The notes under the pieces: model-generated | The model's database searches: none | Seen by the model: only the letters and a program-made list of their open reading frames with translations | Told to the model about the DNA's origin: nothing | NCBI GenBank assembly: GCA_025360225.1 | Contig: JANYCN010000086.1 | Coordinates: forward strand, 1 to 45,539 | Reading direction: 5' to 3' | DNA length: 45,539 nucleotides | DNA from: Actinomycetes bacterium | GTDB taxonomy: Bacteria; Actinomycetota; Thermoleophilia; Gaiellales; F1-60-MAGs149 | Program-made: the position numbers and the translations under genes | Shown: positions 847-8,026 of the stretch, piece after piece | How positions within the stretch are numbered: position 1 is the first letter of the stretch | How the letters are laid out: each line of letters begins with the position of its first letter

Positions 847-946
847 GCCGGCCTGAAGCCCCGTGTCACGATCCTGTATCGAATCGCCTACAGGGGTGCG
901 AGGCACCCGTACGGTCAGGGCCTTCCCCGACGACTGGAGCCTATCC

Positions 947-2422
947 GTGCGACGAACCCCTCGTAAGACCCTGTTGGCAGCCGCGCTGCTCGTCGGCGCG
1001 ACGGCGCCTGCCGTGTCCCTCGCGGCATCGCCAGCGCACCTCGCGCTGGAGACGGCAACGCCGTCGCTGCCGATCGACGGGTACGACGGAACCTACTTCC
1101 TCGGCGACCTCGGCGTCTATCTGACGAACCGCGGCGGCAGTCCGTTTGAGGTCCAGGTGACGCGGGCAACCTACGGATCACCGATCCGGGCGTTCCTCGC
1201 GACCCGCGACGACGATCACCGCCTCGTCCGGACGCCGCTGCCCGCCGGCATCGTCACCGGCTTCGCGGGCTTCGCCCGACTCGGTCACGTGACGATCACC
1301 GACGACGCCGGCGTCGTCGTATCGGACCAGGACATCGGCACGTGTATCGGTGGTGGCGCGCAGCGTCTTGCCGTGGATTCGAACGGGGCGTCTGCGTACC
1401 CCGCGATGTGCGGCGGTGGCAACCCGTTCACGCTCGGCGCCGCATGGGGAGTCGATGCCGGCTGGGCAGCGACCCTCGACGCGTCGAGCGCGACGTTCGT
1501 GGGGGTCTCCGGCACCTACCACGCGCACGTGGCGCTGGATGACGCGACGGCGGCAGCGATCGGCGTCGCACCGGCTGACCGGGCAGCCGACATCGATCTC
1601 ATCGGCACGATGCAGACCACGCTTCCGGGGGTGGGGAAGGTGCCGCACGCCGCCAGCAAGGGGCATCGGCTGCCGCGCGGTCTGCGCCGGTACACGCACC
1701 GGGCAGGAACGGCGCAGCCGGCCACCGACACGTTGCCCGACCTGATCGCCCTTCCGGCGTGGGGCATGAGCACCTCGAGCGACGCCGGGCGGGACTTCCT
1801 CAACTTCGGTGCGAACGTGTGGAACGCAGGGCCGGCTCAGCTCGCCGTCGAGGGGTTCCGCCGGAAGGGGACAGACGTGATGGATGCCTACCAGCTGTTC
1901 TCCCGCAACGGCAAGCAGGTCGGATACGCGGCGACGGGCACGATGGAGTTCGACCGCCGCCCAGGTCACAACCACTGGCACTTCGAGGACTTCGCCCAGT
2001 ACGACCTGCTTGCGGCGTCGGGCGCCGGGATCGTGCGTTCCGGGAAGCAGTCGTTCTGCATCGCGCCGACCGACGGCATCGACCTGCTACGCCCGGGAGC
2101 GGTGATGAACCCGTGGCTCGTTGGCCTCGGAAGTGCCTGCGGTTGGTCAAGCGCGCTGTGGATCCGCGAGGCGATGCCGGTCGGCTGGGGCGACACCTAC
2201 TTCCAGTACAAGTCGGGCCAGGCCTTCGACGTGACGGACGTTTCGAACGGCACCTACGCGGTGCGGGTGACGGCGAACCCCGGGGGTCGTCTGTTCGAGC
2301 GCACGCGCGCGAACGACACCTCGCTGCGCACCGTCATCCTCGGTGGCGTCCCCGGGGCGCGCACCGTAACGGTGCCGCCGTACATGGGAATCGACACAGA
2401 CCCGGCCCTCACGGTCGGGTAG
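947..2422 (+). CDS. Secreted lysyl oxidase-like copper amine oxidase
   Basis: A 491-aa exported protein. GTG 947 is preceded by GGAG 7 nt upstream and begins a signal peptide (RRTPRK, hydrophobic stretch, then Ala-Ala-Ser near residue 25). The N-terminal half, about residues 30-250, is beta-rich and unrecognised. The C-terminal part, about 275-480, matches the lysyl oxidase fold (PF01186). The copper ligands appear as His341, His343 and His345 in GHNHWHFEDFAQYDLL. Lys367 (SGKQSFC) and Tyr418 (GDTYFQ) fall where animal LOX forms the lysine tyrosylquinone cofactor, and DVTDVSNGTY matches the family's DITDV segment. It is therefore plausibly active on extracellular amines or protein lysines. It is transcribed alone; a strong hairpin follows the stop. 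An upstream in-frame ATG at 863 is less likely because the signal peptide would begin internally. Confidence 0.8.
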   Translation: MRRTPRKTLLAAALLVGATAPAVSLAASPAHLALETATPSLPIDGYDGTYFLGDLGVYLTNRGGSPFEVQVTRATYGSPIRAFLATRDDDHRLVRTPLPAGIVTGFAGFARLGHVTITDDAGVVVSDQDIGTCIGGGAQRLAVDSNGASAYPAMCGGGNPFTLGAAWGVDAGWAATLDASSATFVGVSGTYHAHVALDDATAAAIGVAPADRAADIDLIGTMQTTLPGVGKVPHAASKGHRLPRGLRRYTHRAGTAQPATDTLPDLIALPAWGMSTSSDAGRDFLNFGANVWNAGPAQLAVEGFRRKGTDVMDAYQLFSRNGKQVGYAATGTMEFDRRPGHNHWHFEDFAQYDLLAASGAGIVRSGKQSFCIAPTDGIDLLRPGAVMNPWLVGLGSACGWSSALWIREAMPVGWGDTYFQYKSGQAFDVTDVSNGTYAVRVTANPGGRLFERTRANDTSLRTVILGGVPGARTVTVPPYMGIDTDPALTVG

Positions 2423-4099: not shown

Positions 4100-5140
4100 A
4101 TGGATGACCTTTCCTCGATCCGCCAGCTCCGCCGCCCGCCGTCGCCGGGAAGGCTCGTCGTCCGGATCACCGCAGCGATCGTCGCGCTGGTCGTCCTGAT
4201 CGCCCTGCTCGGCGGGTTCTCCTCGGCGGTGTACGCCCCCGAGGCGCAACACATCACCGTCGTCCGCGACGGCGCCCCATGGCAGGGACACTCGATCAGC
4301 AGCGTGGTGCGTCCGAACAGCGGCCGTACCTGGATCGGGCTGTACGCTGTGACGCACTCCTACCCGGACTCGACGATCCAGCGCTACTACACGATCACGG
4401 CTGATAACGCGCGTGGCGACAGGGTCGGCGTCGACGTCGTGCACGTTCCGACCACTGACGGCGTTCAGGTCGGGATTGAAGGCACCTTCTACCTGAAGAC
4501 CGGCTTCGACGGGTCTGACGGAGGCGTTGCGCTCGTCCGGCAGTTCGACGACCAGTTCGGGACGCGCGTGTTCCCCGTGTCGTCCACCGCTGACCTGCTG
4601 CACGCCTGGGACGGTGAGCAGGGCTGGGCGGCGTTCCTCGACTCGATCGTCCGGCCCGTGATCGACAACGAGCTGCGGATCGCGGTCGGCGGGTTCCGCT
4701 GTCAGGAGCTGAACGCGGCCTGCGCGCTGGTCGCGAACGCGAACGCCGACGCGAACGCGGTCGCGCAGGCAGGCCAGCAGAATAACCAGAACCTTCAGCA
4801 GGTCGAGAACGCGATCAACAAGGGCCTCGCGGTCGACCTCCATGACAAGCTCGGGGCGGACTACTTCGTCAACGTCCGGTTCTCGCTCGCCAAGGTCACG
4901 CTGCCCGAACAGATCCAGCAGGCCGTGAACGACGTTCAGGCAGCACGGGTCGAGGTCGCAAAGGCCGCGGCAAAGGTGCAGCAGGCGCAGAAGCAGAACG
5001 AGGCGAACGCGCTCCTCTCGAAGACGTATGACACCTGCGCGGCATGCGCCCAGATCGACGCGATCAAGGCGCTCCCGACCGGATCGAACGTCTACTTCGG
5101 CATCCAACCGATCGTCACGGCGCAACCCGCCGCGAAGTAG
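4100..5140 (+). CDS. SPFH/band-7 (prohibitin-like) membrane protein
   Basis: 346 aa. One membrane segment lies at about residues 21-44, then an extracytoplasmic band-7 region (about 50-230) and a long Ala/Gln-rich coiled coil (about 235-320) with the VTLPEQIQQAV segment typical of prohibitin/stomatin proteins. Such proteins form oligomers that organise membrane domains or hold membrane proteases; no protease of that kind is adjacent. Four Cys are visible, in FRCQELNAAC and TCAACAQ, which may form disulfides outside the cell. The start is ATG 4100, with a -10 box 6-7 nt upstream. Confidence 0.8.
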   Translation: MDDLSSIRQLRRPPSPGRLVVRITAAIVALVVLIALLGGFSSAVYAPEAQHITVVRDGAPWQGHSISSVVRPNSGRTWIGLYAVTHSYPDSTIQRYYTITADNARGDRVGVDVVHVPTTDGVQVGIEGTFYLKTGFDGSDGGVALVRQFDDQFGTRVFPVSSTADLLHAWDGEQGWAAFLDSIVRPVIDNELRIAVGGFRCQELNAACALVANANADANAVAQAGQQNNQNLQQVENAINKGLAVDLHDKLGADYFVNVRFSLAKVTLPEQIQQAVNDVQAARVEVAKAAAKVQQAQKQNEANALLSKTYDTCAACAQIDAIKALPTGSNVYFGIQPIVTAQPAAK

Positions 5141-5246
5141 GAGTCGAACGAAGACCGGACTATCCTGCCAGCTGGGATCGATGGTCACTCGACAGGCCGT
5201 AGATGTGCAATGATGATCTCGCGTCGACCCTGGGGGGGGCAGCACC

Positions 5247-7916
5247 GTGATCGCTTCGCTACGCAGAAGGTGGGTCGTGCTCGTCGCGGTTGCGTTGCTG
5301 GCCGCGCCAGGGCAGGCGCACGCTGCCCGACCACACGTCGTTGGCGGAACGGCCGTCGCTGACGGTAGCTATCCGTTCGTCGCGAGCATCGTCTTCGTGA
5401 ACCCGCCGACGGACGCCGATCCGACCGGCCAGTTCTGTGGCGGCACGCTGATCGCGCCCCAGATCGTGTTGACGGCGGCGAGCTGCGTCGCGCGTTGGCC
5501 GATCTCGAGCCTGCGCGTCGTGCTCGGTCGGCGCGACCTGCGGCTGCCGGGCGAGCCGCACGTGATCGACGGCGTCACGGTCGCCGCTGACTGGAACCCG
5601 TACTCCGGCGAGCACGACCTCGCCGTCCTCCATCTCGCGACACCGTCGCCGATCGTGCCGGTTCGCCTGGCGAGCACGGCGCAGACCGACGCGGCCACGG
5701 TCGGCGTGACGTTCGGCTGGGGCGCGATCGATGCGGCCGGCGTGGTCCTGCCGTTCACGCTGCAGTCCGTGGCCGCACCGATCTCCACGACGGTCGACGC
5801 GGAGTCCGTCCTCGGCAACACCTTCCATGCCGGCAGCGAGATCGCCGCCGGCGACATAGCGCTTGCTCGTGTTGCCTGCGCCGGCGACGAGGGCGGGCCA
5901 CTCCTCGTCGGCGATGGCGTTGGCGGGTTCCTGCAGATCGGCGTCTTCTCGTTCAACCTCGACCGGACGTGTGGGAGCCCGGTCAGACCGGGCGTCTACG
6001 CGCGCGTGTCCGAGGATGTCGGGGCCCTCCTGACGGCCTCGCCGGTGCCCCGGTTCGTGGGTGACGCTTCCATCGTCGGCGATGGCAGCATCGGGGAGCC
6101 GCTGACCTGCCGCGCTCCGGTCAGCGGCGTCGACCCGGTGCTCAGGTACGCGTGGTTCATCCTCGACGACCAGGGCGATCGGCCGGACCGGCCGATCACG
6201 CACGCGACCGGGTGGAGATACACGCCGGTCTCGTCGCTGGTTGGCTCGACGATCTACTGCGCGGTCACGTTGGCCGTGGCGAACGGAACCGACAGCAGGT
6301 CGAGCGACGGGGTGCTGGTGCACTGGCGCGACCGTACGCCGCCACGATCCTGGCCGGTTCAACTGACCTGCGGGCGCACGACGTGCAGCCTCTACGTGAT
6401 CGCACGCGATCGCGGCCGGCACCGCACCGGGATCGCGCGCGTCGACGTGATCGTCGCAGTCCAGGGCCGCGCCGTGCAGGTGCAGCAAGCCCGGCACGTC
6501 GGCGGCGCCCGGTACGCCGTTCGCATCGGCGCGTTGCGGCCCGGTGCCGTGACCGTGTACACCCGCGCCACCGACCGCGCCGGCAACGTCGAGTCGACCC
6601 TTGCCGGCACCGGCTACACCGTCGCCTTCGGCCCGACCGCCCACGTCGTCGGAGGCGGAGGCACCGCGGTGCCCTACCCGTTCGTCGCCAGCATCGTGAA
6701 CCGCGCACGCGGCTCGTATCCCCCGTTCACGACCGTCTACTGCACCGGGACGCTCGTGGCGCCGCAGCTCGTGCTGACCTCGGTCGGATGTGTCAACGGC
6801 CCGGACTACTCCAGCACCACGGTCGTGCTCGGCCGCGCTGACATCAGGGATCCCGGCGAGGTACACGACGTGGACGGTGCGGTCCTCCCGCCGATCTACG
6901 ACGGGGTCCGGACGCGCCAGGTGGCGTTGCTGCACCTGACGACACCGTCGTCGATCACGCCCGTCACGCTTGCCACCGAGACTCAGGTGGATGGAGCGAC
7001 CGTCGGTACCGTGCTCGGCTGGGGACAGACGGACGCATCCGCGTCGGTCGTCCCGTTCCGGCTGCAGCAGGCCACCGTCTCGATCGCGAACAGCGCGGCG
7101 GCGGCGGCGCTCCTGGGCCGGGTGTTCGATCCGGCGACCGGGATCGCCGTCGGAGACGTGCCGCCGACACGATACGCGTGCGGTGAGGACGCGGGAGGAC
7201 CGCTCCTGATCGATGACGGGCACGGCGGCGTCGTTCAGGCCGCGCTGTTCCCGGGCCGCGTTGGCTGCTTGCCGAAAACCGTCCCGGATATCTACGCCGC
7301 CGTTGCACCGGAGGCGGACTGGCTAGTCGACCCATCGGTCCTGCCCGGCCTCGCGCATCCGCTGACGATCGTCGGTTCCGGTGCCGTCGGCAATCCCCTC
7401 GTCTGCGACGCGGTGCCAACGCTCCCTGGCAGCGTAATCACGTTCCAGTGGATCGGGCACGACCCTGACGGAGGCGTCACGACGATCACCGGCGCGACCA
7501 CCGACGTGCACGTCCCGACCGCCTCCGAGCGTGGCTGGCAGCTGTCCTGCGAGGTCACGGTGACGGCGGGGCGCCGTTCACTCCGCTTCGGCGCGGCCCT
7601 CGTCTCCGTCCACTGGGCCGACGTAACGCCGCCGCGCTCGTGGCCCGTCCGCCTTACGTGTTCCGATCGTCGTTGCACCGCGACGATCCGTGCCGAGGAC
7701 CGCGGCGCGACGGCGAGCGGCGTCCTGCGGGTCGAGGTCGTCGTCCTGGGACCGGGCAAGCGCGCGATCATGCGCGATGCCACGCGGCTCGCCGGCACCA
7801 CGTACGTCGTCAACCTCGGCAGGCTCCCGCCCGGCAAGGTGACGGTCCAGACGCGTGCGACCGACCGCGCCGGCAACCGACAGCGGGTCTTCGCGTTCGC
7901 GAGCTTCCGGCCATGA
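5247..7916 (+). CDS. Secreted tandem trypsin-like pseudoprotease with Ig/FN3-like modules
   Basis: 889 aa, start GTG 5247 after a G-rich RBS, with a signal peptide ending QAHA at about residue 27. The protein is an internal duplication: S1-like domain 1 (about 30-265), an Ig-like plus FN3-like region (about 270-465), S1-like domain 2 (about 468-695), then a second Ig/FN3-like region (about 700-889). Each half carries TPPRSWPV and ATDRAGN motifs. The chymotrypsin fold marks are clear (VVGG start, paired Cys, GWG, GGPL), but catalysis looks lost. Domain 1 has LTAASC (His to Ser79) and GDEGGPL (Ser to Glu215), keeping only Asp124. Domain 2 has LTSVGC (His to Gly514), RQVALLHL (Asp to Val559) and EDAGGPL (Ser to Ala649). 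A binding or adhesion role is more likely than proteolysis. It is transcribed alone. Confidence 0.85.
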   Translation: MIASLRRRWVVLVAVALLAAPGQAHAARPHVVGGTAVADGSYPFVASIVFVNPPTDADPTGQFCGGTLIAPQIVLTAASCVARWPISSLRVVLGRRDLRLPGEPHVIDGVTVAADWNPYSGEHDLAVLHLATPSPIVPVRLASTAQTDAATVGVTFGWGAIDAAGVVLPFTLQSVAAPISTTVDAESVLGNTFHAGSEIAAGDIALARVACAGDEGGPLLVGDGVGGFLQIGVFSFNLDRTCGSPVRPGVYARVSEDVGALLTASPVPRFVGDASIVGDGSIGEPLTCRAPVSGVDPVLRYAWFILDDQGDRPDRPITHATGWRYTPVSSLVGSTIYCAVTLAVANGTDSRSSDGVLVHWRDRTPPRSWPVQLTCGRTTCSLYVIARDRGRHRTGIARVDVIVAVQGRAVQVQQARHVGGARYAVRIGALRPGAVTVYTRATDRAGNVESTLAGTGYTVAFGPTAHVVGGGGTAVPYPFVASIVNRARGSYPPFTTVYCTGTLVAPQLVLTSVGCVNGPDYSSTTVVLGRADIRDPGEVHDVDGAVLPPIYDGVRTRQVALLHLTTPSSITPVTLATETQVDGATVGTVLGWGQTDASASVVPFRLQQATVSIANSAAAAALLGRVFDPATGIAVGDVPPTRYACGEDAGGPLLIDDGHGGVVQAALFPGRVGCLPKTVPDIYAAVAPEADWLVDPSVLPGLAHPLTIVGSGAVGNPLVCDAVPTLPGSVITFQWIGHDPDGGVTTITGATTDVHVPTASERGWQLSCEVTVTAGRRSLRFGAALVSVHWADVTPPRSWPVRLTCSDRRCTATIRAEDRGATASGVLRVEVVVLGPGKRAIMRDATRLAGTTYVVNLGRLPPGKVTVQTRATDRAGNRQRVFAFASFRP

Positions 7917-7950
7917 CGACGAACGGACCGCCGTCGGCACTGGTCTCTCC

Positions 7951-8026
<76 letters not shown>

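Follow-up and report, generated by a model that had tools for sequence, protein, structure and literature searches.

A tandem of two predicted S1 pseudoprotease domains with Ig-like tails in an actinomycete genome, probably inactivated before its duplication

Dead trypsin folds are common in animals, and among bacterial proteins MamO and MamE are related to the HtrA/Deg family. In MamO of the magnetotactic bacteria, a domain of the trypsin fold has a degenerate active site and serves a non-catalytic function, and the protein activates MamE-dependent proteolysis (PMC4794232). In a survey of 91 prokaryotic genomes, 2 of the 247 trypsin-like proteins counted were inactive homologues (PMC2605481), so that dead S1 domains were rare in the bacterial genomes of that date. 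The insect serine protease homologues (SPHs) are described as S1 folds without catalytic activity and the human polyserases as having several S1 domains per chain (PMC4676143, PMC1435904). The secreted Vibrio cholerae proteins VesB and VesC (PDB 4lk4, 6bqm), which were studied as proteases, combine a single S1 domain with an additional beta domain at the C-terminus. An inactive S1 fold is already known, and so, separately, is a chain that carries more than one S1 domain. A bacterial tandem in which both S1 domains are dead and are combined with Ig tails was not found in the open-licence literature, and we describe such a protein here.

The window, by which we mean the whole stretch of 45,539 nucleotides that was analysed, contains at positions 5247-7916 on the forward strand a single open frame of 889 aa with a GTG start. 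The whole ORF (5247..7916) comprises a signal peptide and two halves, in each of which an S1 pseudoprotease domain precedes two Ig-like modules; all the features given here are on the forward strand. A sigma-70-like promoter match, TCGACA-17-GATGAT, lies at 5189..5217, a weak consensus match only, with 1 found as compared to 0.1 expected in shuffled sequences. The first 26 residues (MIASLRRRW..AHA/A, 5247..5324) were read by eye as a Sec-type signal peptide, which suggests that the protein is secreted. Pseudoprotease domain 1 begins with VVGG (aa 31) and ends near aa 268 (5337..6050), with a Pfam Trypsin match at aa 31-255, a model pLDDT of 87 and Z-scores of 31-33 to trypsins. It is followed by Ig-like module 1a (about aa 270-358, 6054..6320), which is beta-rich in the model and resembles modules of further proteins from the class, and by module 1b with a Cys pair (about aa 359-455, 6321..6611), which starts near TPPRSWPV and has a weak Big_13 match below the cut-off. 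Domain 2, placed by family search and domain alignment, begins with VVGG (aa 467) and ends near aa 705 (6645..7361); its model has a pLDDT of 84 and Z-scores of 28-29 against trypsins. Module 2a (about aa 706-795, 7362..7631) was placed by the tail alignment and the model, and module 2b with its Cys pair (about aa 796-889, 7632..7913) by these and by the sequence. Module 2b is the C-terminal end of the protein, and no anchor was seen there.

Pfam Trypsin matches the protein twice (E 4e-51). In a family search of the own genome, where the two domains were scored separately, domain 1 reached 109.7 bits (2.6e-31) and domain 2 71.3 bits (1.5e-19), both above the cut-off of 20.6 bits, and the tandem of two S1-like domains proposed in the first-pass annotation is thus well founded. 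The internal duplication proposed there is also borne out, as the S1 domains are 43% and the tails 40% identical to each other in pairwise alignment; it thus consists of a unit of about 430 residues that is present twice, in diverged copies. Both tails are beta-rich and Ig-like, with Pfam Big_13 matches below the cut-off only. Pfam gave no match to a PDZ domain in the 889-aa protein, the feature that follows the protease domain in HtrA/Deg, and the Ig-like modules are found there instead. NCBIfam gave only matches below the cut-off for the protein, and PHROGs none.

Both halves were modelled with AlphaFold, with alignments of the collected relatives' loci as input. The mean pLDDT was 87.1 for half 1 and 83.8 for half 2, a confidence in the fold that is partly borrowed from the many active trypsins contained in the input. 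Compared to the S. griseus trypsin 1sgt, the model of half 1 gave a Z-score of 31.7 (1.9 Å over 218 residues) and that of half 2 a Z-score of 28.8 (2.3 Å over 217 residues). Both halves are thus predicted to adopt the double beta-barrel trypsin fold, as had been anticipated for each of them, and the profile match and the models place the protein in the S1 (trypsin) family by descent. VesB and VesC were among the top Foldseek matches of both halves, but only parts of them match; their whole-length superposition is poor (rmsd 8 to 22), and they were rejected as a whole-length structural match.

The active sites were compared by profile alignment with 56 other S1 domains, namely the S. griseus trypsin and 55 relatives. 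At the positions of His57, Asp102 and Ser195, domain 1 has Ser79 (codon AGC, 5481..5483), Asp124 (GAC, 5616..5618) and Glu215 (GAG, 5889..5891), so that only the aspartate is kept. Domain 2 has Gly514 (GGA, 6786..6788), Gln558 (CAG, 6918..6920, placed by both pairwise and profile alignment) and Ala649 (GCG, 7191..7193). All 56 other S1 domains aligned have an intact His-Asp-Ser. The first-pass annotation had read the same residues in domain 1 and the same loss of the triad in domain 2, but it put Val559 at the Asp102 position, one residue off from Gln558. Neither domain retains the specificity-pocket residue Asp189, which is Val209 in domain 1 and Tyr643 in domain 2, and the oxyanion-hole Gly193 is retained in domain 1 (Gly213) and replaced by Glu647 in domain 2. 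The fold's disulfides had been described as kept, which is right for two of the three: Cys42-Cys58 and Cys191-Cys220 are retained in both domains, but Cys168 and Cys182, invariant in 50 of the 50 active domains compared, are alanines in both copies.

When a conserved column was defined as one kept in at least 80% of the active S1 domains, there were 44 such columns. Both copies retain 24 of them and both have lost 9; another 10 are missing from domain 2 only and 1 from domain 1 only. Those retained in both include Cys42, Cys58, GWG, Cys191, Asp194, GGPL and Cys220, and the earlier observation of GWG and GGPL in both domains was correct. A search for a cluster of residues common to the two dead domains and rare in active ones gave 18 positions, but no clear patch. 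With no intact triad in either domain, and Gly193 lost in domain 2, the protein is not expected to be an active S1 protease. It has the predicted S1 fold with catalytic residues missing, which makes it a probable pseudoprotease or serine protease homologue, and together with the signal peptide the residues S/D/E and G/Q/A at the triad positions support its description as a secreted tandem pseudoprotease.

A maximum likelihood tree of 52 domains showed the two copies to be sisters with a support of 100/100. Their shared stem is 1.03 changes per site, and their end branches are 0.52 for domain 1 and 1.09 for domain 2. Both copies are without the same five features, His57, Ser195, Asp189, Cys168 and Cys182, and this, together with the long common stem of the sister copies, implies that activity was most likely lost once, before the duplication. 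The suggestion of the first-pass annotation, that different residues were lost in each copy, is not supported as worded and is probably misleading. One loss before the duplication is more parsimonious than separate losses, which is an argument of parsimony and not a proof. Domain 2 most likely decayed further after the duplication, and would then have lost Asp102 and Gly193. The codons at the Ser195 position are one base apart, GAG in domain 1 and GCG in domain 2, which fits with an ancestor that already had a non-serine residue there. The halves differ at 46% of their bases, which implies an old duplication and rules out an assembly artefact.

The retained fold and open frame had been taken as a sign of selection, and a comparison between the halves supports this. 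The difference is 0.527 at third codon positions and 0.401 at second ones, as compared to 0.600 and 0.736 for unrelated codons of the same make-up; third positions are at 88% of the unrelated level and near randomised, but second positions only at 55%. A simple dN/dS between the halves, 0.47 for the S1 domains and 0.84 for the tails, is near saturation at the synonymous sites, and the codon-position differences were for that reason preferred. Neutral drift simulated to the observed divergence gave about 8-9 stops across both halves, and both halves remained open in <0.1% of the runs (at most 0.05%). The real frame has no stop or frameshift across its 889 codons, and its GC3 of 0.87 is like that of the neighbouring genes. 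The constraint was measured between the two copies only, as the genomes searched gave no orthologue. If catalysis was lost before the duplication, this constraint acted on a dead protein; if inactivation instead followed most of the divergence, it would reflect an active past. The codon positions, the open frame and the two confident trypsin-fold models together point to selection for a folded protein.

No orthologous dead tandem was found among 16 genomes of the family, 129 of the order and samples of 399 genomes of the class (twice) and 396 of the phylum. The same searches and two scans of the genome contigs gave single-domain relatives only, or nothing, and the matches listed from plasmid records were single trypsin domains of <36% identity. 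The plasmid match of highest identity was to Miltoncostaea, which together with the GC content suggests an origin in the Actinomycetota, perhaps the Thermoleophilia. The closest S1 domain in a BLAST-type search, L056 of G192, is single and 43% identical. The proteins L103 (G172) and L059 (G281) of the same class are like each half of the tandem in having a Trypsin domain, then an Ig-like and then a Cys-pair Ig-like module; they differ from it in being single-copy and active by sequence, with an intact His-Asp-Ser, and they show what is likely the ancestral layout. The loci L096 and L097, from G305 and G274 of the class, each have two active S1 domains next to one another, so that local duplications of S1 domains are apparently nothing unusual there. 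The own genome has one other trypsin-type protein, a 541-residue frame with an intact triad that is 37% identical, and two further matches that are HtrA-like by sequence; no other protein related to the tails was found in it. It also encodes a putative lipoprotein of the SSI type (subtilisin inhibitor-like; L114, G000:C43:21493-21720), with an E-value of 8e-6 and above the Pfam cut-off.

The pseudoprotease gene is flanked on one side by ProRS, a zincin-type gene and tRNA-Pro(GGG). Immediately upstream of it, at 4100-5140 (+), Pfam identifies an SPFH/Band_7 protein gene, which has no match in the 15 other genomes of the family. Genome G001 has the same ProRS-zincin-tRNA-Pro order, followed by a subtilase-like frame instead of the pseudoprotease gene. 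Between genera, the DNA that adjoins the tRNA-Pro(GGG) 3' end looks variable: here (window 4100-8026) it holds the pseudoprotease and Band_7 genes, and it differs at 4894-6337 of locus L081. A mobile island was considered and rejected, as no attachment site was seen and the 3' end of the tRNA-Pro is unrepeated within the window. The ProRS frame of the relative G007 (L078, G007:C11:29441-31135) has one in-frame TAG, possibly a sequencing error. A frame at window 863-2422 has a match in two stretches to Pfam Lysyl_oxidase (E 2.5e-8), a family best known from animals.

The ancestor was probably an active single-copy secreted S1-Ig-Ig protease, of a kind still present in other members of the class. 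Catalysis would have gone first, with the loss of His57, Ser195, Asp189 and the Cys168-Cys182 disulfide, and the whole S1-Ig-Ig unit would then have been duplicated, after which Asp102 and Gly193 disappeared from the second copy while the fold stayed under selection. What would be left is a secreted pair of rigid barrels, each with two disulfides and variable loops and mounted on Ig spacers. The triad is disrupted and the S1 pocket residue replaced in both domains, and domain 2 is also without the oxyanion glycine, which makes both proteolysis and a substrate-like capture of inhibitors unlikely. Selection on the fold after the loss makes binding the most likely action, and the protein would then bind an extracellular protein or polymer with two linked heads, at parts of its surface away from the old S1 pocket. 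As a whole, we find it rather probable that a dead and then duplicated S1-Ig-Ig unit has been kept for non-catalytic extracellular binding, where the role is inferred and the order of events derives from parsimony.

Other roles for a retained trypsin fold have to be weighed against this. Standard protease inhibitors bind substrate-like, into the S1 pocket and the oxyanion hole. Dead domains that soak up such inhibitors, and thereby shield the active proteases of the organism, would explain why both copies keep the fold in the models, and the SSI-type lipoprotein makes an interplay of inhibitors and proteases possible. With Asp189 replaced in both copies, a glutamate for Ser195 in domain 1 and another for Gly193 in domain 2, a substrate-like decoy is disfavoured, and we consider it unlikely. 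The protein could also regulate an active S1 protease in its own cell, by analogy to the insect SPH cofactors or to MamO in MamE-dependent proteolysis, a precedent from bacteria (PMC4794232). The intact trypsin-type protease of the own genome would be a candidate partner, but its gene is unlinked, being located on a different contig, and its tail has no detectable relation to those of the pseudoprotease; such a role seems rather unlikely.

That the gene is a decaying pseudogene, open by chance, is quite improbable: a frame free of stops, constrained second codon positions, a GC3 like that of the neighbours, and structural cysteines and GWG/GGPL retained in both copies all speak against it, even though domain 2 has the longer branch and has lost more conserved residues, and no orthologue was found in the family, order, class-sample or phylum-sample genomes. 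Domain 1 keeps Asp124, has the acid Glu215 at the Ser195 position and Ser79 nearby, and pseudoenzymes with migrated residues or new activities have been described (PMC10211241), so the old site might have a new catalytic or metal-binding use. As domain 2 has Gly, Gln and Ala there, the site is not common to both; no S1 precedent was found in the literature, and we regard such a use as very improbable.

The protein also differs from the described systems. MamO is a part of the magnetosome system, binds metal by a surface di-histidine motif and is not a tandem of S1-Ig-Ig units (PMC4794232), and the insect SPHs and human polyserases are animal proteins with other accessory domains, without the bacterial Ig tails. 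On the preferred reading, a duplicated dead unit kept for binding, its two dead S1 domains would be a concise example of how a protease fold can be taken over for binding, in which the order of loss and duplication can be read and active relatives share the layout, though so far the example comes from one genome. Tentatively, an S1-Ig-Ig protease that lost catalysis before its duplication may have turned into a purely structural, two-headed extracellular binder, a possible bacterial counterpart of the recognition and cofactor proteins of the SPH type in animals.
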